Below, one piece after another: positions 1,509-7,546 of a stretch of 64,000 nt of DNA; position 1 is the stretch's first letter, and every line of letters starts with the position of its first letter. The position numbers were made by a program, and so were the translations under genes. This stretch comes from Streptomyces sp. NBC_01016 (GTDB lineage Bacteria > Actinomycetota > Actinomycetes > Streptomycetales > Streptomycetaceae), in NCBI RefSeq assembly GCF_026341035.1, contig NZ_JAPEOQ010000002.1, forward strand, positions 2,108,001-2,172,000, written 5' to 3'. Below the pieces are notes generated by a model. That model saw only the letters and a list, made by a program, of their open reading frames with translations. It was not told the origin of the DNA and did not search any database.

Positions 1509-1937
1509 TCAGCTGGTGCGCCTCACCGTGAGGAGGAGTGTGAGGGGGCCGGCTGGTAGCAGGAAGCGTCCGTGTTCGGCTGCGTCGAGGGCGGAGTTGA
1601 GCGGCCACCAGTCGAGTTTGAAGTCCTGCTCGGTGTCGGTGAGTTGCTGTGGTCCGAGGTGCAGGTTCTGGGCGAGGAAGAGGTGGATGCGGGCGGTTGA
1701 GGCCAGTGTCATGGCGTAGTTGCCCAGGGCGGTCCAGGACGATGCGGTGACGCCGGCCTCTTCTTTGAGTTCACGCTTTGCGCAGGTGAGTGCGTCTTCG
1801 CCGTCTTCGCGTCGTCCTCCGGGGAGGAACAGGAAGTCGCCGCCGTGGCCGGGGAAGGGGGCGCTGAGGATGGCGACTTTGCCGGTGTTGTCGAGGGCTG
1901 CGACGACGGATGCGTCGCGGGCGGGTGCATCGCTCAT
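1509..1937 (-). CDS. NUDIX hydrolase
   Basis: A 142-residue single-domain NUDIX protein, expected to hydrolyse a nucleoside diphosphate linked to another moiety (X). The Nudix box spans about residues 41-63 and keeps the glycine, the first glutamate (47), the RE pair (55-56), the EE pair (59-60) and the closing glycine. It is the last gene of the five-gene minus-strand unit and starts 18 bases after the hydrolase stop, so co-transcription is likely. A house-cleaning or pathway pyrophosphatase role is equally possible; the substrate is unknown. The start codon at 1937 is ATG. Confidence 0.9.
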   Translation of the reverse strand: MSDAPARDASVVAALDNTGKVAILSAPFPGHGGDFLFLPGGRREDGEDALTCAKRELKEEAGVTASSWTALGNYAMTLASTARIHLFLAQNLHLGPQQLTDTEQDFKLDWWPLNSALDAAEHGRFLLPAGPLTLLLTVRRTS

Positions 1938-1955
1938 GGGCGGTGAGCGTAGCGG

Positions 1956-2753
1956 TCACGCTGTGAGCCAGGCGGCGAACGGCACGGTGGTGACGGTGGG
2001 GTGGGCGATGCCGCGGCCGTGGAAGCCGTCCTCGCCGTATGCGTCCCCGTGGTCGGCGCACAGGATGATCAGCCAGGGGCGGGTGGCGGTGAGGCGGTCG
2101 ATGAGGCGTCCGAGGTGTGCGTCGGCGTAGGCCAGGGCGGCCTGTTGCGAGGCCGCTGTGTCGGCGTGTTCGTCGAGGTAGTGGCCGTGTGGGACGTGGG
2201 TTGCCGAGATGTTCACGAACAAGTAGAGCGGGTGCTCGGCGTATTGGGCGGCGAGGTCGAGGGCCGTGTCGACTTGGTGGCGGGTGGAGTCGGGCTCGGG
2301 CGAGCCGAACTCGGGGCGCCAGTGGTCTTCGTCGAACAGGTCGGGCAGCACGTTGCCGAGCGGGGTCTCGCGTGAGAAGTAGGTGACGCCGCCGACGCAT
2401 ACGGTGCGGTATCCGTGGGCGTTGAGGCCGCACAGGAGGTTGGGGGCGTCGAAGACGAAGGTTTGCTTGTCGACTTCTTTGAAGGCGGGCGGTCGGCATT
2501 CCCACAGCCGGGGTGGCTGCTGTGGGGAGGGCAGCTTGGGCAGGAATCCGGAGAAGAAGGCGATGTGCGCGGGGAGGGTGAAGGTGCCGGGTGTCCAGCG
2601 CCGTTCCCAGGTCCCGTTCGGCAGGAGGCGGGCCAGGTGCGGCGTCCGGCCCTGCGTGAGTGCCGTGGTAGCGACGTCGTAGCGCAGTGAGTCGAGGGTG
2701 ACGAAGAGGATCGGCGTGCCGGTGCCGATGATTTCGGCGGCGTTGATGTGCAC
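1956..2753 (-). CDS. Alkaline phosphatase/sulfatase-superfamily hydrolase (STM4013-like)
   Basis: A 265-residue metal-dependent hydrolase of the alkaline-phosphatase/sulfatase fold. An N-terminal metal ligand sits in VTLDSLRYD. A probable nucleophilic threonine lies in GTFTLPAH, a block typical of the superfamily, and C-terminal ligands are in ADHGDAYGEDGFHG. There is no signal peptide, so it is cytoplasmic, unlike classical sulfatases. It most resembles what I recall as the STM4013/SEN3800 family, which is also found beside radical SAM genes. The GTG start at 2753 lies 5 bases after the upstream stop, with GGGGAAAGG as ribosome site. It is likely to remove or transfer phosphate or a phosphoester in the same pathway as its neighbours. 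Confidence 0.8.
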   Translation of the reverse strand: MHINAAEIIGTGTPILFVTLDSLRYDVATTALTQGRTPHLARLLPNGTWERRWTPGTFTLPAHIAFFSGFLPKLPSPQQPPRLWECRPPAFKEVDKQTFVFDAPNLLCGLNAHGYRTVCVGGVTYFSRETPLGNVLPDLFDEDHWRPEFGSPEPDSTRHQVDTALDLAAQYAEHPLYLFVNISATHVPHGHYLDEHADTAASQQAALAYADAHLGRLIDRLTATRPWLIILCADHGDAYGEDGFHGRGIAHPTVTTVPFAAWLTA

Positions 2754-2758
2754 GCAGA

Positions 2759-3238
2759 TCAGGCCTTTCCCCGATACTCGATCGTTCCGCGGGCGGCGTC
2801 GTTGACGGGGATCGGGACGCGGTCCTGTGCGATGAGGTCTCGGATGGCGGCGAGTCCGGATTCCTCGGTGAGTGGCTTGCCGTCGGCGTCGAACAGCGCG
2901 ACGGTGACCTCGGCGGAGGGGGTCGTGCTGATGTGTGCGCTCGGAACGGAACCCAAGTCAGCTGTCACCAGGCCGAGTTCGTCGGGCTCGGTTGGTTCCT
3001 GCAGGGCGGTGACGAGGCACTTGTAGTGCAGTGCGTTGATGGCGCCGCGGGCGAAGCGCGTCGCGTACTGGGCGCTGATCGCCTCTCCGTCGTGGGCGAC
3101 GACGACATGGGAGGCCTTCTGGGTGACTACGAGGCAGGCGCCGAGCCACCAGGCGACGCCGGCATGGATCTGGCTGGGGTGGTGGCCCGTGGCACAGCCG
3201 TCGCGGATGACGGCTTTGGCGTCGATCGGGTTAAGCAC
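2759..3238 (-). CDS. Short phosphohexomutase-like protein (domain I only)
   Basis: The start is GTG at 3238, which overlaps the kinase stop by 8 bases; the open frame extends further upstream but there it only shadows the kinase. The 159-residue product resembles domain I of phosphoglucomutase/phosphomannomutase: HVVVAHDG, then FARGAINA, then a block ending DADGKPLTEESGLAAIRDL. That last block corresponds to the region just after the catalytic TASHNP loop in the family. Here the loop reads STTPSAE, so the usual phospho-serine motif is altered. Full mutases have about 450 residues and four domains, so this is either a minimal binding or regulatory homologue or a specialised enzyme. It is stably placed inside the operon, with overlaps on one side and 5 bases on the other. 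Confidence 0.6.
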   Translation of the reverse strand: MLNPIDAKAVIRDGCATGHHPSQIHAGVAWWLGACLVVTQKASHVVVAHDGEAISAQYATRFARGAINALHYKCLVTALQEPTEPDELGLVTADLGSVPSAHISTTPSAEVTVALFDADGKPLTEESGLAAIRDLIAQDRVPIPVNDAARGTIEYRGKA

Positions 3239-3866
3239 GGGTGCGCTCCAGGGTGTGCAGGATCTCGTGGGCGACTTGGTCGGGCGTCTTGTCGTCGGTG
3301 TCGATCCAGATGGCGCTCGGGTCCTGGGATGCGACAGCTTCGAAGTTGAAGAGGACCTGGTCGAGGCGGCCGGGCACGGTGAGCAGGTCGGTGTCGTCTT
3401 GTTTGAGGTCGCTCTTGGTGCGCATGCGGGCCTGCAGGGTCTCTGTGCGGCAGCGCAGGTAGAAGGTGTGGGTGGGCTGGACGATGTAGGGCAGGAACGG
3501 GGCGGCGAGTTGGCGGACCTGCTCGACGGGGATGCCGTGGGCGGCGGCATGGCAGGCGAGGACGGAGGACTGGTAGCGGTCGGCAATGACCGGGGTGGCG
3601 CTGCGGGCCGTGCGGACGCAGTCGGAGGAGTGCAGCAGGCCGGAGAGGTAGAAGCACAGCTGGGGCAGCGGTGCGAGGTGGCTGTTGGCGGCCTTTGACC
3701 AGTCGTTGTGGGGCCGGGGGAGAGTGTGCAGGCTCATGGCCTGGAGCCGGTGGGTGAGGAGATTTTCCAGCGTGGACTTCCCCATGCCTGAGGGGCCTTC
3801 CAGGGCGATGAACGGATGCTCGGTGTCGCCGTAGGTGCGTGGCGTATACGCGAGAGGCAGGTTCAC
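3231..3866 (-). CDS. Thymidylate-kinase-like P-loop nucleotide kinase
   Basis: A 211-residue kinase of the dTMP-kinase-like P-loop superfamily. The P-loop GPSGMGKST lies at residues 24-32, and the DR-type motif ADRYQSS corresponds to the DRY(x)SS of Tmk. A lid-like segment with arginines (RCRTETLQARMRTKSD) follows. It probably phosphorylates a nucleotide or similar small molecule. The GTG start at 3866 overlaps the radical SAM stop (GTGA), which implies translational coupling. It is divergent from housekeeping Tmk and lies in a pathway-like operon, so a modified nucleotide or a different acceptor is more likely than dTMP supply. Confidence 0.82.
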   Translation of the reverse strand: MNLPLAYTPRTYGDTEHPFIALEGPSGMGKSTLENLLTHRLQAMSLHTLPRPHNDWSKAANSHLAPLPQLCFYLSGLLHSSDCVRTARSATPVIADRYQSSVLACHAAAHGIPVEQVRQLAAPFLPYIVQPTHTFYLRCRTETLQARMRTKSDLKQDDTDLLTVPGRLDQVLFNFEAVASQDPSAIWIDTDDKTPDQVAHEILHTLERTRA

Positions 3867-4900
3867 AGGGTTCCTTCCGTGAAGGCGGTGACGTGTTGGG
3901 CGACGGCGGTTGCCAGAGCATGTGGATCGTCAAGGTGCTCGCGTAGGTCCATGCGCAGGTCGTCGCGGAGCAGGCAGGGCTGGAGGCCGCCGCCGTGGTC
4001 GACGCGCAGAGCCCAGAACCCCTCGATGCACTGGGAGCGCACAGGGCAGGTTCCGCACTGGCCGACGTGATGTCGGCCGAGATCGCGGTGGATGACGTCG
4101 ATCTCGATCCCGTCGACGCGGAAGACACGCCGTCCTTGCCCGACGCCGGCGATTTCCGTGTGCTCGTCGCTGGTGAGTGTGCGCAGGTAGCGGATCGCGT
4201 CGTCCGCGGAGACGGCAGCGTCGGCGTGCTGGCTGTTGAAGCCGGTGTCGACGAGTTCAATGAGCTGCACCGGCATCCGCCGTTCCAGCGCATAGTCGAG
4301 GATCGCTGCGATTTCGTGCTGGTTCTGGCGTTGCAGCAGGGTGTTCAGCTCGACGCGGGGCATGACCTCGCGGGCCGCCTCGATGCCGTCGAGGACGGCG
4401 CCGATGCCGTGCGGAACCCGCGCGATCTCCATCAGCGACTCGTCGGAGAAGTAGTGCAGCGACACCTTCACCTTGTCGAGTGGTGCGCCTGCCAGCCATG
4501 CCTGGTTGCGTCGTACCAGCAGACCGTTGGTGATCAGCGTGTATGAGGAATCCGGTGCGGACCGGGGGAGCTGTTCCAGGACGGGGCGTGCCCAGCGGGA
4601 GAGGAGGGGCTCGCCACCGGTGAAGTAGACGCGCTTGAGGCCGGCGTCCATGAGACCGGTGATGGTCTTCACGTACGCGGACGCGTCGAACTTCCGCTCG
4701 CGCGGCTTGTTGCTGCGATCGCGGTGAGCCTCGGGGGGCGGTACATCCCCTTCGTTGTGGCAGAACCAGCACAGGGCATTGCAGTGCGGCGTGAAGGAGA
4801 CCCGCAGTTGACCTCGGAGCGCGGCGAAGTTGCGCAGCGCGGTGAAGTCGGCCTCACCGCCGGGATGCCCGGGCGAGGAGAGACGCAAGGGAATGGACAT
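3863..4900 (-). CDS. MoaA-like radical SAM enzyme
   Basis: A 345-residue radical S-adenosylmethionine enzyme. The cluster motif CNALCWFC (cysteines 40, 44, 47) is followed by HNEG, and the SAM-binding GGEP is at 95-98. C-terminal cysteines at 282, 285, 291 and 309 suggest a second iron-sulfur cluster of the MoaA/twitch type, with spacing unlike MoaA (CxxCx13C). The open frame continues upstream, but the ATG at 4900 has a strong GGAGG 8 bases before it and the protein begins naturally there. It is the first gene of the five-gene unit. The reaction is unknown; nucleotide or sugar-phosphate rearrangement fits the neighbours. It is not a typical moaA locus because no other molybdopterin genes are present. 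Confidence 0.88.
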   Translation of the reverse strand: MSIPLRLSSPGHPGGEADFTALRNFAALRGQLRVSFTPHCNALCWFCHNEGDVPPPEAHRDRSNKPRERKFDASAYVKTITGLMDAGLKRVYFTGGEPLLSRWARPVLEQLPRSAPDSSYTLITNGLLVRRNQAWLAGAPLDKVKVSLHYFSDESLMEIARVPHGIGAVLDGIEAAREVMPRVELNTLLQRQNQHEIAAILDYALERRMPVQLIELVDTGFNSQHADAAVSADDAIRYLRTLTSDEHTEIAGVGQGRRVFRVDGIEIDVIHRDLGRHHVGQCGTCPVRSQCIEGFWALRVDHGGGLQPCLLRDDLRMDLREHLDDPHALATAVAQHVTAFTEGTL

Positions 4901-5055: not shown

Positions 5056-5538
5056 TCACATGTGCTGACTCGTCCCGACGGCAGGGATGTCCTCGACGGA
5101 TACGAGACACCAGGCCACGGAACCGTCCGGACTGAATCCCCACGTGCCGTCCAACTCACCGATCAACGCGTCGACGAGAAACAAGCCCCGGCCCGACTCG
5201 GCGTATTCGCGGGCGGCTTGGGGAGACGGGACGGTCGCCGGCGTGGCGTCGTCCACCTCGATGCGGACGACCCCGGGCTCAGGGCTGCAGCTGCGGTACG
5301 TGACCGGTCTGTCGGCCCTGCTGTGCAGGAGCGCATTGGTCATCAGCTCCGACACGATCACCGCAAGAAGCTCGACGCGGTGCCTCGGCATGCGGCACGA
5401 GCCCGTAAGCCACTGCGTGCTCTCGAGACGTATGGCGCGCACCTCTTCAGGGGCAGGGCTGACGGTCCGCTCGACCGAGGTCGGCCACGGCAGTTCTGCC
5501 GATGCGGCCTTGGGTGCCGTGCTGGTCTGTGCAGGCAT
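5056..5538 (-). CDS. RsbW-like anti-sigma ATP-binding protein
   Basis: A 160-residue HATPase_c domain of the serine-kinase/anti-sigma type that is greatly expanded in streptomycetes. The N-box SELMTNALLHS, G1 box (IEVDDATP) and G2 box (ESGRGLFLVDAL) are all present. The ATG at 5538 has GGGAGG eight bases upstream; the longer frame to 5643 has no better start. It ends 155 bases before the radical SAM start on the same strand, so it may be transcribed into that operon or end just before it. No partner sigma factor or anti-anti-sigma factor is adjacent, so its target is unknown. Confidence 0.85.
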   Translation of the reverse strand: MPAQTSTAPKAASAELPWPTSVERTVSPAPEEVRAIRLESTQWLTGSCRMPRHRVELLAVIVSELMTNALLHSRADRPVTYRSCSPEPGVVRIEVDDATPATVPSPQAAREYAESGRGLFLVDALIGELDGTWGFSPDGSVAWCLVSVEDIPAVGTSQHM

Positions 5539-5602
5539 GCTGGTGCCTCCCCAAACATGGGTCGAACGGGAACACCCGCGCGAGCACCGCGCGCCGAGAT
5601 CC

Positions 5603-6097
5603 CTATACGGGCACATGGACGCGGACCGTTTTGCCGCCCCCATCGCGCAGGAACCAGGACAGCGCGCCGCCCAGGGCGTGGATGACGTCGAGCCCTCTTC
5701 CGCATTCGCTCTCGTCGTCGGCGCCCCCGCGTTCGCGGAAGCGGGAGAGGCCCGGGACGGGATCCGACACTTCGATGAGGAGCGCGCAGTCCTCCAGGAC
5801 AGCGAGACGGACGTTCATCATGTGGCCGGCCATGCGGCCGTGGCTGATGGCGTTGGTGGCGAGTTCAGATGCTATGAGCGTTGCGTCCTGCTGATCCCCG
5901 GACCACCGCCACATCACCAGCTGGCGCCGGGCGTGGAGCCGCACCAGCGGCACCACCTGGTCCACCATCGTGTAGTCCATGGACCACTCGGCCACCACGG
6001 GGGCCGTGGCGACTGGTTCACCAGTAGACACGATCACGGTGTCTCCCTCATCGGGTGTGGCCCGGCCACTGTCGACGAGGAAGTCCCCAGCGCCCAC
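5603..6097 (-). CDS. RsbW-like ATP-binding regulatory protein
   Basis: A 164-residue HATPase_c protein, the second of a tandem pair on this strand. The N-box is SELATNAISHG, the G1 box IEVSDPVPG and the G2 box ECGRGLDVIHAL. It lies 64 bases upstream of the similar gene at 5056-5538 but is clearly diverged from it, so this is an old duplication or an independent gain. Such proteins bind ATP and inhibit sigma factors or phosphorylate STAS-domain antagonists. The divergent gene at 6251 encodes an XRE regulator, and the 150 bases between them should hold both promoters. Confidence 0.85.
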   Translation of the reverse strand: MGAGDFLVDSGRATPDEGDTVIVSTGEPVATAPVVAEWSMDYTMVDQVVPLVRLHARRQLVMWRWSGDQQDATLIASELATNAISHGRMAGHMMNVRLAVLEDCALLIEVSDPVPGLSRFRERGGADDESECGRGLDVIHALGGALSWFLRDGGGKTVRVHVPV

Positions 6098-6250
6098 AGC
6101 GAATCCACTAGATCGTCTGGCCGGTTCACAACACCATGCCGACAGGAGCGGTTTCTGGCTTCCCGCTGGGAGGTACCCCCATCATGGGTAGGCTTCTCGA
6201 TCACTTCCTCGAAAGACTGAGGCTCACCAGCAGGCGCGATGGGGCACCTC

Positions 6251-7546
6251 ATGAGCGAGTACCAACCAGCGACGGCCTTACCCGAAGAGACCTTGCAGCT
6301 CCCGGAGCTGCGGGCAGCGATCAAGGCACACAACTTCGGCGAGGTGTTCCGCCTGGCCAAGGCCCACGCCGGGATCAGCTACTCCAAGTTGGCGGCCGAG
6401 TGCGACATCAAGCCGGAACGCGTGGGGTCCCTCGCAAGGGGAATCGGTAGCGTCACTACCTTCGACAAGATTGCCGCCATCGCGGATGCTCTGCGCATTC
6501 CAGGGCATCTGCTGGGACTCGCCGACCGGTCGTGGGAGGCGAAGAACACAGCCCGAGATGGAGCAACGGCATTGCGACGCAGGGAGTTTGTAAAAAAGGC
6601 ATCCGGGTCGATAGCGGCAGCGAGCCTCATCGCCCTGACTCCGCTGGAAACCGGGGGACGGCTCGGGGCGAGCGATGTCGAGCAACTACGGCGTCGGACG
6701 GCCCGGCTGCGCCGACTCGACGACGTGCTCGGTGGAGGCGACACCTTCAAGCTCTACCTAGGCGAGTTCCACGCGACACGGGGGCTCCTGCGCGATTCCA
6801 GCTACAGCGAAGCCACCGGGCGGGCTCTACGCTCCGTGCTCGCCGAACAGGCACAGCAGGCTGGCTGGGCTGCCTTCGACGCCGGACGCCACCCGGAGGC
6901 GCAGGGACTCTACGAGGCCAGCCATAGCGCGGCACAGGCCGCCGGCGACGTCGCACTCGAAGGTAACGCGCTCGCCTTCCTCGCCTACCAGCACTCGTCG
7001 ACCGACCGGGCCAAGGCAGTCGCCACAGCGATCGAGTCGTGCCGGACAGCGGGGCCGGGCTCACCGGCTGGAGTCCGCGCCCTGCTCCACGAGCGCCTGG
7101 CGTGGGCACAGGCAGTCGCAGGGAACCCACGCGAGACAGAGGCGGCCCTGCACACGGCCGAAGCCGCCCTGCGGGAACCGGACGGCAGCCCAGTCCCCGA
7201 CTGGGCTGCCTGGGTCGACACTGATGAGGTAGAGATCATGAAGGGCCGGTGCTGGACGGAACTCCGCCGCCCGCTGCGTTCGGTCCCTGTCCTCGAAGCC
7301 GTCCTGGCGCGCTTCAACGACACCCACGCCCGAGACAAAGCCCTCTACACGTCGTGGCTCGCCGAGTCCTACCTGTCCGCGAGCGAGGTCGAGGCCGCCG
7401 CCGTGACCGCAAGCCGCGTGCTCGACTTGTCCGCCGGTGTCGCATCGGTACGCCCCCGGCAGCGGCTCGCACCCACGCTGTCGGCGTTGGCGCAGCACCG
7501 AGGCTCACCGGAAGTCGATGACCTACTGGAGCGGGTACGGGCCTAA
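6251..7546 (+). CDS. XRE-family HTH regulator with TPR-like C-terminal half
   Basis: About 431 residues. The N-terminal part, up to residue 80, is a lambda-repressor-type helix-turn-helix (FRLAKAHAGISYSKLAAECD, then VGSLARG). The remainder is an alanine-rich all-helical region with repeated pairs of helices (for example AFDAGRHPEAQGLYEASHSA), as in TPR proteins that sense small peptides or assemble with partners. The start is ATG 6251; an in-frame ATG at 6239 adds four residues. It is transcribed away from the two RsbW-like genes and overlaps cutA by 4 bases at its 3' end. It is similar in form to the many single-copy Streptomyces XRE/TPR regulators; its regulon is unknown. Confidence 0.85.
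   Translation: MSEYQPATALPEETLQLPELRAAIKAHNFGEVFRLAKAHAGISYSKLAAECDIKPERVGSLARGIGSVTTFDKIAAIADALRIPGHLLGLADRSWEAKNTARDGATALRRREFVKKASGSIAAASLIALTPLETGGRLGASDVEQLRRRTARLRRLDDVLGGGDTFKLYLGEFHATRGLLRDSSYSEATGRALRSVLAEQAQQAGWAAFDAGRHPEAQGLYEASHSAAQAAGDVALEGNALAFLAYQHSSTDRAKAVATAIESCRTAGPGSPAGVRALLHERLAWAQAVAGNPRETEAALHTAEAALREPDGSPVPDWAAWVDTDEVEIMKGRCWTELRRPLRSVPVLEAVLARFNDTHARDKALYTSWLAESYLSASEVEAAAVTASRVLDLSAGVASVRPRQRLAPTLSALAQHRGSPEVDDLLERVRA

Follow-up and report, generated by a model that had tools for sequence, protein, structure and literature searches.

Within a 64,000-nucleotide stretch of Streptomyces sp. NBC_01016 DNA (assembly GCF_026341035.1, contig NZ_JAPEOQ010000002.1, positions 2,108,001 to 2,172,000 of the forward strand; this whole stretch is "the window" below), five tightly packed minus-strand genes encode a radical S-adenosylmethionine (SAM) enzyme, a Tmk-family kinase, a mutase-like protein, a sulfatase-fold hydrolase and a NUDIX hydrolase, which we call RSAM, KIN, MUT, SULF and NUDIX. 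These five genes form a real conserved unit, and we give about an even chance to the idea that the unit spreads horizontally and encodes the biosynthesis of a modified nucleoside or nucleotide, with an end product that would most likely be an antimetabolite. The work connects an unnamed gene set that recurs in actinobacteria to the small number of radical SAM pathways known to yield unusual nucleosides. If the reading is true, three to five closely packed genes become a target in the search for a new nucleoside antimetabolite, the STM4013 hydrolase family gains a first functional lead, and a mutase domain would have turned into a non-catalytic partner. Because the genes also sit on plasmid and phage-like DNA, the question of antibiotic or defence is directly testable.

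A conserved unit with a three-gene core

The genes had first been described in a sequence-only reading as a five-gene operon, and all of its coordinates and junctions were reproduced: RSAM and KIN share a 4-base GTGA overlap, KIN and MUT overlap by 8 bases, and gaps of 5 and 18 bases separate MUT from SULF and SULF from NUDIX. Its kinase, NUDIX, radical SAM and sulfatase-fold calls are each above the respective Pfam cut-off (Radical_SAM 64.9 bits, Thymidylate_kin 37.2 with a cut-off of 27, Sulfatase 52.1, NUDIX 51.0); PGM_PMM_I on MUT scores 13.7 bits, under its cut-off of 22.5.

Homologues scattered without a conserved neighbourhood were not seen. In a survey of 297 genomes of the same bacterial family, with RSAM counted as present at a score of at least 345 bits, the RSAM search finds some match in 296 genomes yet reaches that threshold in only 19, the best score in the others being 72.9 bits, the MoaA level. 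KIN, MUT and SULF follow RSAM in the same order in all 19 carriers, and NUDIX comes next in 18, with a second KIN at the NUDIX position in the other (L048). The MUT profile attains at least 142 bits in exactly those 19 genomes, the next match scoring 75 bits, and this co-occurrence has p = 2e-30 in a calculation that takes no account of genome kinship; the weaker matches, among those listed, are mostly frames of ordinary phosphomannomutase length.

A scan of named-species genomes gave 79 loci, 59 cassette-type (L049-L107) and 20 distant, and among viral contigs there were three loci of the cassette type and a distant one. For the count of architectures, 82 loci minus 12 duplicates of the same RSAM stretch leave 70 distinct loci, with L059, L060 and L084, which the script had labelled as second NUDIX type, counted as full cassettes since their own NUDIX is present. 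The complete five-gene set occurs in 50 and RSAM-KIN-NUDIX alone in 14; L095 has RSAM-KIN-MUT-SULF plus a second KIN, L101 has RSAM-KIN only, and four loci (L100, L102, L105 and L106) have RSAM without KIN. MUT and SULF occur together in 51 loci and are both missing from 19, while RSAM, KIN and NUDIX are all present in 64, with MUT and SULF lying between KIN and NUDIX in 50 of these. Because 14 loci have just these three genes and MUT and SULF come and go jointly, the core is the RSAM-KIN-NUDIX trio, and MUT and SULF make up an optional pair, so far seen only together; the five-gene operon thus holds for 50 of the 70 loci, around a core of three genes that the earlier reading had not set apart. 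Nor is the gene set a matter of chance, since genes, order and junction lengths (-4, -8 or -17, -4 and about 20 bases) recur in those 50 loci; across six locus pairs, the ratio of nonsynonymous to synonymous substitution (dN/dS) is 0.13-0.69 for all five genes.

The radical SAM enzyme and its relatives

RSAM combines a core CX3CX2C motif, followed by HNEG, with an auxiliary CX2CX5CxE...PC. The auxiliary CX2CX5CxE is found in 26/26 cassette RSAMs, in 3/3 proteins of the AbmM group and in 0/11 Streptomyces MoaA proteins, so that the "unusual" auxiliary cysteines reported earlier are indeed there but occur in AbmM as well. When RSAM is aligned with AbmM, the two share CHNEG and CGTCx5CxE...LR...PCL, the second stretch scoring just 14.3 bits; these AbmM-type features are derived from AbmM itself, with no published family definition behind them. 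The core motif followed by HNE is kept in 25 of the 26 cassette RSAMs. The exception, L091 (7983-9023), is otherwise intact and has serine in place of the second core-motif cysteine.

MoaA, AbmM, BlsE and the viperins all have nucleotides or nucleosides as substrates, and PqqE does not. A profile of 27 sequences (26 cassette-type plus the distant L108, with neither AbmM nor MoaA included) scores solved structures in the order MoaA (109 bits), AbmM (8wm2; 80.9), PqqE (52.7), BlsE (49.7) and viperin-like proteins (at most 44). The predicted structure of RSAM (predicted local distance difference test, pLDDT, 88.3) finds, among the matches listed, MoaA at Z 27, SuiB at 21.8, SkfB at 20.7, viperins at about 20, PqqE at 20.0, BlsE at 19.0 and AbmM at 18.7, this VIA-align comparison covering the families in the listed rows; the matches listed from a BFVD fold search are general radical SAM proteins. 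A comparison with MoaA and viperin had been suggested alongside the first description, and MoaA is the closest fold among the matches listed, with viperins some way behind, but RSAM lies under the curated cut-offs of both: 118.3 bits vs 325.25, 114.7 vs 284.05 and 113.3 vs 231 for the MoaA equivalogs, and 47.1 vs 180 for the viperin equivalog NF038283. The C-terminal CX2CX13C and GG tail of MoaA are seen in 0/26 cassette RSAMs, as against 11/11 Streptomyces MoaA controls.

In a phylogenetic tree the 26 cassette RSAMs fall in one group (97/98 support), apart from MoaA, AbmM and a group of radical SAM proteins linked to CYTH genes. There is no viperin in the tree, because 148 genomes of the class, when searched for prokaryotic viperins, yielded two matches, none above the cut-off. 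The CYTH-linked sister group also has CHNEG, and its auxiliary motif is CX2CX7CxE in 10/10 proteins. L109, L112, L116, L122 and L123 have a common gene family downstream of the radical SAM gene, which Pfam identifies as CYTH in the two loci checked (L116 and L122), and in L111 (6874-8969) a Tmk-like kinase gene, a CYTH gene and the radical SAM gene are consecutive; the set resembles another cassette, for nucleotides or polyphosphate. In Wenjunlia vitaminophila (L113:7902-9565) the gene right after an AbmM relative encodes a deoxynucleoside kinase (58.6 bits), and the two are possibly a thionucleoside unit.

The kinase, the NUDIX hydrolase and partner-swapped loci

The KIN profile matches Tmk-type kinases, with a Walker A pattern in 64 of the 68 called KIN frames, and KIN itself scores 54.2 bits against the dTMP kinase model TIGR00041, below the equivalog cut-off of 83.25. 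Against PADLOC models, the window KIN reaches 45.1 bits with PDC-M51B and 28.5 with VakA, a name that we take to mean viperin-associated kinase, and the KIN of L101 reaches 70.6 and 46.6 respectively. At L101, in Paenibacillus kobensis, the gene after RSAM and KIN encodes a nucleoside diphosphate kinase (NDK; 92.5 bits), which would complete a route from nucleoside monophosphate through diphosphate to triphosphate. This locus (L101:6211-12912) also lies beside an NTP_transf_5 nucleotidyltransferase, a Mur ligase and a lysine/ornithine-hydroxylase-like protein, surroundings that suggest a larger natural-product cluster.

L100 and L102 have RSAM, then a major facilitator superfamily (MFS) transporter, then NUDIX (at L102, the sole locus checked by Pfam, MFS_1 162.5 bits and NUDIX 59.3 bits), and L105 has RSAM, a transporter and a 64-residue frame that we read as a short NUDIX-like remnant. 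The order RSAM, MFS transporter, NUDIX would fit export plus triphosphate removal. In the main NUDIX cluster, each of the 54 proteins has an intact Nudix box.

The optional MUT and SULF pair

The short phosphohexomutase-like protein of the sequence-only reading does have the fold of phosphomannomutase domain I: a profile of 33 MUT proteins matches the Xanthomonas phosphoglucomutase 5bmn (E 4.5e-7), and the MUT model (pLDDT 93.9) matches phosphomannomutase/phosphoglucomutase (PMM/PGM) structures in Foldseek with a best E of 1.3e-8 and a query template modelling (TM) score of 0.75. What probably does not hold is the mutase label. MUT is 158-181 residues long in the 33 aligned proteins, where the multi-domain PMM/PGM enzymes have about 450, and the SHN of the TASHNP catalytic loop is found in 0/33 of them; it is present in four Streptomycetaceae PMM controls, themselves chosen as frames containing SHNP. 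Because this serine loop is missing, we read MUT as a binding domain, and it is probably not a mutase.

SULF, formerly a cytoplasmic phosphatase/sulfatase-fold hydrolase, can now be placed in a named family, STM4013/SEN3800, scoring 344.5 bits with NF038075 (cut-off 250) and showing 41-51% identity to three of its members, all of them from STM4011-STM4015 cassettes. Like these three it has TLD, DHG and the F-T of the nucleophile site, but TLPAH and DHGD stand where they have TYASH or TYAAH and DHGT; the threonine of TLPAH is its presumed nucleophile. Our literature search on STM4013 turned up only a sigma-54 paper that is unrelated as far as its available part goes (PMC3844500).

Mobile contexts and flanking genes

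The cassette moves, in part at least on plasmid and phage-like DNA, since copies sit on plasmids and on two phage-like contigs. A Streptomyces albidoflavus plasmid (L132) carries all five genes; of 133 plasmid matches to RSAM, the 60 listed are, besides two cassette copies, mostly annotated MoaA. The related IMG/VR contigs L129 and L130 have RSAM-KIN-NUDIX in the vicinity of endolysin and minor tail genes, and L129 also encodes a large terminase subunit of 592 residues (131.7 bits), which we looked for and did not find in the L130 and L128 contigs. Among known phage records no match spans 80% of RSAM, identities being about 23-31% in the rows listed; with coverage below 80% and identity this low, we see no RSAM orthologue in these records.

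Some further observations concern the same loci. Genes near the cassette at L129:5831-6427 and L130:11130-11915 have starts that look Phd-antitoxin-like by eye (GLREGRAKFGDLVNRAEYAG); a search of PHROGs with the L129 copy found nothing. The S. albidoflavus plasmid also bears a type I-E CRISPR-Cas operon (L132:1-5224) some 5 kb away from the cassette, as well as two small lasso-peptide B2 genes downstream. RSAM is split over two frames in L047, L098, L099, L103 and L104, which are either sequencing errors or decaying copies.

Flanks were clustered in 72 gene-called loci, including some duplicates, with a simple gene-calling script that cuts or misses some genes and that shortened the first HATPase of the window. 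Gene recurrence drops sharply outside the five genes: the RSAM cluster occurs in 69 loci and those of the other four genes in 51-66, falling to 21 for the HATPase and 18 for the NsdA-like regulator, and the flanks themselves vary. Regulators frequently sit directly upstream; both HATPase_c_2 proteins of the window (Table 1) are at best accessory to the cassette, the RsbA-like one as an accessory regulator. A relaxase family occurs in seven flanks (one member Pfam-checked) and an HD protein family in six (the one member checked by Pfam is YfbR-like). An ABC transporter (positions 9-998 of the window) adjoins the window cassette and was dropped as a component, not being constant near cassettes elsewhere.

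Table 1. The cassette and its upstream neighbours, in window coordinates
Feature	Position	Strand	Details
RSAM, radical SAM enzyme	3863..4900	-	345 aa; ATG start, GGAGG a few bases upstream; MoaA/AbmM-like
KIN, Tmk-family P-loop (nucleotide) kinase	3231..3866	-	211 aa; GTG start; Thymidylate_kin 37.2 bits
MUT, lone phosphomannomutase domain I without TASHNP loop	2759..3238	-	159 aa; GTG start
SULF, alkaline-phosphatase-superfamily hydrolase, STM4013/SEN3800 family	1956..2753	-	265 aa; GTG start; NF038075
NUDIX hydrolase, Nudix box intact	1509..1937	-	142 aa; ATG start
HATPase_c_2 (RsbA-like) protein upstream of RSAM	5056..5643	-	Cluster in 21/72 gene-called loci
Second upstream HATPase_c_2 protein	5603..6097	-	Family search
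NsdA-family TPR/HTH (tetratricopeptide repeat/helix-turn-helix) regulator, divergent	6239..7546	+	Cluster in 18/72 gene-called loci

What the cassette might make, and the alternatives

How might such a cassette work? In the scheme that we propose, RSAM would use a 5'-deoxyadenosyl radical, and probably an auxiliary iron-sulfur cluster too, to rebuild a nucleotide at its sugar or base. Its reaction could be sulfur insertion as in AbmM, one option among several and the one worth testing first because the RSAM motifs match those of AbmM. KIN would convert the monophosphate to the diphosphate, a nucleoside diphosphate kinase, general or dedicated, would make the triphosphate, and NUDIX would return the triphosphate to the monophosphate, either protecting the producer or completing the pathway; SULF may take off a phosphate, with MUT as its putative phosphosugar-binding, non-catalytic partner. 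The small pathway on phosphorylated nucleotides or sugars proposed at the outset survives in its conserved gene set and fitting enzyme families, with the roles of some genes corrected (the core trio, MUT), and we regard a nucleoside natural product as at least as likely as the signalling or defence metabolite suggested then. More tentatively, and with rather more doubt than belief, we can imagine the whole as an undescribed, widespread and mobile class (actinobacteria, Paenibacillaceae, plasmids, phage-like contigs) whose product is a new nucleoside, modified with sulfur or rearranged in some other way and serving as a weapon or an antiviral, and in which a dead phosphomannomutase domain partners an STM4013-type phosphatase.

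In favour of a modified nucleoside or nucleotide we count the profile scores and AbmM-type motifs of RSAM, the Tmk-like KIN, the NDK of L101, the transporter and NUDIX genes of L100 and L102 with their counterpart in L105, the flanking HD family and the predicted roles that match those of thmA-C. Several points weigh against such a product. The CX2CX5C stretch is known from SPASM domains too, which weakens the argument from motifs; identity between RSAM and AbmM is about 25% over 285 residues; and the fold score of AbmM trails those of the viperins and of SuiB, SkfB and PqqE, enzymes that do not act on nucleotides and that include peptide-modifying ones. The branches of the tree are long, leaving the order among the cassette RSAM, AbmM, MoaA and CYTH-linked groups not separated, and L108, a radical SAM gene with an adjacent kinase, groups with the CYTH-linked proteins. 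The actinobacterial loci have no constant transporter beside the cassette, and the Nudix-box pattern fits only 10/17 proteins of the second NUDIX type. The kinases differ as well: AbmG is a deoxycytidine-kinase homologue, according to the available part of its description (PMC9032320), whereas KIN is Tmk-like, and the KIN profile does not match the presumed AbmG frame (L149:291-1106, assigned by its P-loop), with which blastp aligns KIN over 37 residues at E 0.015.

The main rival is a viperin-like phage defence, rather unlikely in our view, in which RSAM makes a chain-terminating or antiviral nucleotide, KIN maintains the triphosphate and NUDIX limits self-harm. The kinase matches to PDC-M51B and VakA are consistent with this, as are the patchy spread over 19 of the 297 family genomes, the plasmid copies, the frequent upstream regulators and the core trio that keeps company with phage-type genes on L129 and L130, the former with its terminase. 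Yet RSAM is far below the viperin cut-off, the MFS transporter beside RSAM in Firmicutes argues for export, and we know of no viperin with an auxiliary cysteine set of the RSAM type.

Two other explanations leave defence aside. The loss of the MUT catalytic loop, the 19 of 70 RSAM-bearing loci that lack both MUT and SULF, and the indication of nucleotides from KIN and the L101 NDK together make it improbable that the cassette edits sugar phosphates or nucleotide sugars, with RSAM remodelling the sugar, MUT binding a hexose phosphate, and SULF and NUDIX removing phosphate, even though MUT has its phosphomannomutase fold and the SULF and NUDIX families include phosphosugar enzymes. RSAM might instead cyclise a purine nucleotide as MoaA does, leaving the other enzymes to trim a pterin-like or other cofactor, an idea prompted by MoaA being the top-scoring solved homologue and, among the matches listed, the closest fold; we hold this to be very improbable, given that all 26 cassette RSAMs lack the CX2CX13C and C-terminal GG of MoaA and group apart from it in the tree, and that a patchy, mobile distribution is unlike that of a cofactor.

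Comparison with known systems

The sequence-only reading knew of no named system with this gene set, and our literature searches, with most subscription papers outside their coverage, likewise found no published description of the cassette. Prokaryotic viperins also set a radical SAM enzyme beside a Tmk-like kinase; RSAM differs from them in its score and its extra cysteine set, and the cassette adds NUDIX and MUT-SULF. MoaA (GTP 3',8-cyclase) is likest by profile and fold, and differs in the C-terminal features that RSAM lacks and in the curated cut-off that RSAM does not reach. The STM4011-STM4015 cassette has a hydrolase of the same family as SULF, but sets it among two other radical SAM proteins, STM4014 and STM4015, where the neighbours of SULF here are KIN, MUT and NUDIX; RSAM gave no meaningful match to STM4011 or STM4012. 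Copies of STM4011-STM4015 occur on plasmids of Streptomyces, Methylobacterium and Paenibacillus (L133, L134 and L135). The albucidin cluster was considered and set aside: by annotation, in the part of the paper available (PMC7074753), its two radical SAM proteins and ribonucleotide reductase are unlike the cassette, and the cloned fragment also has a thymidylate kinase.

This leaves the sulfur-inserting enzymes. AbmM, of albomycin biosynthesis (PDB 8wm2), has CHNEG and CX2CX5CxE...PC in common with RSAM, and the frames called in two AbmM regions (36 and 20 kb) include no homologues of MUT, SULF or NUDIX. According to the available part of a recent paper (PMC12691670), AbmM exchanges oxygen for sulfur with its own iron-sulfur cluster as the sulfur donor, and E. 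coli can make 4'-thiothymidine with no more than the thmA-C genes of Photorhabdus, which encode a radical SAM enzyme, a nucleoside kinase and a nucleoside triphosphatase. The same source describes 4'-thiothymidine as a nucleoside antibiotic, to which the triphosphatase alone confers resistance, ThmB as a distant AbmG homologue and ThmC as the nucleoside triphosphatase; the word NUDIX is absent from its main text. Compared by roles alone, thmA-C and the cassette have the same three predicted roles in their minimal sets, and the genes around them vary in both; thmA-C has three genes only, where the cassette has a Tmk-like kinase, NUDIX and usually MUT-SULF. We regard thmA-C as the closest working analogue, and, because the three roles match though the protein families differ by annotation, we read the cassette as the same kind of device, a putative radical SAM, kinase and triphosphatase nucleoside machine like those already known, to which the accessory MUT-SULF pair would be a new addition.

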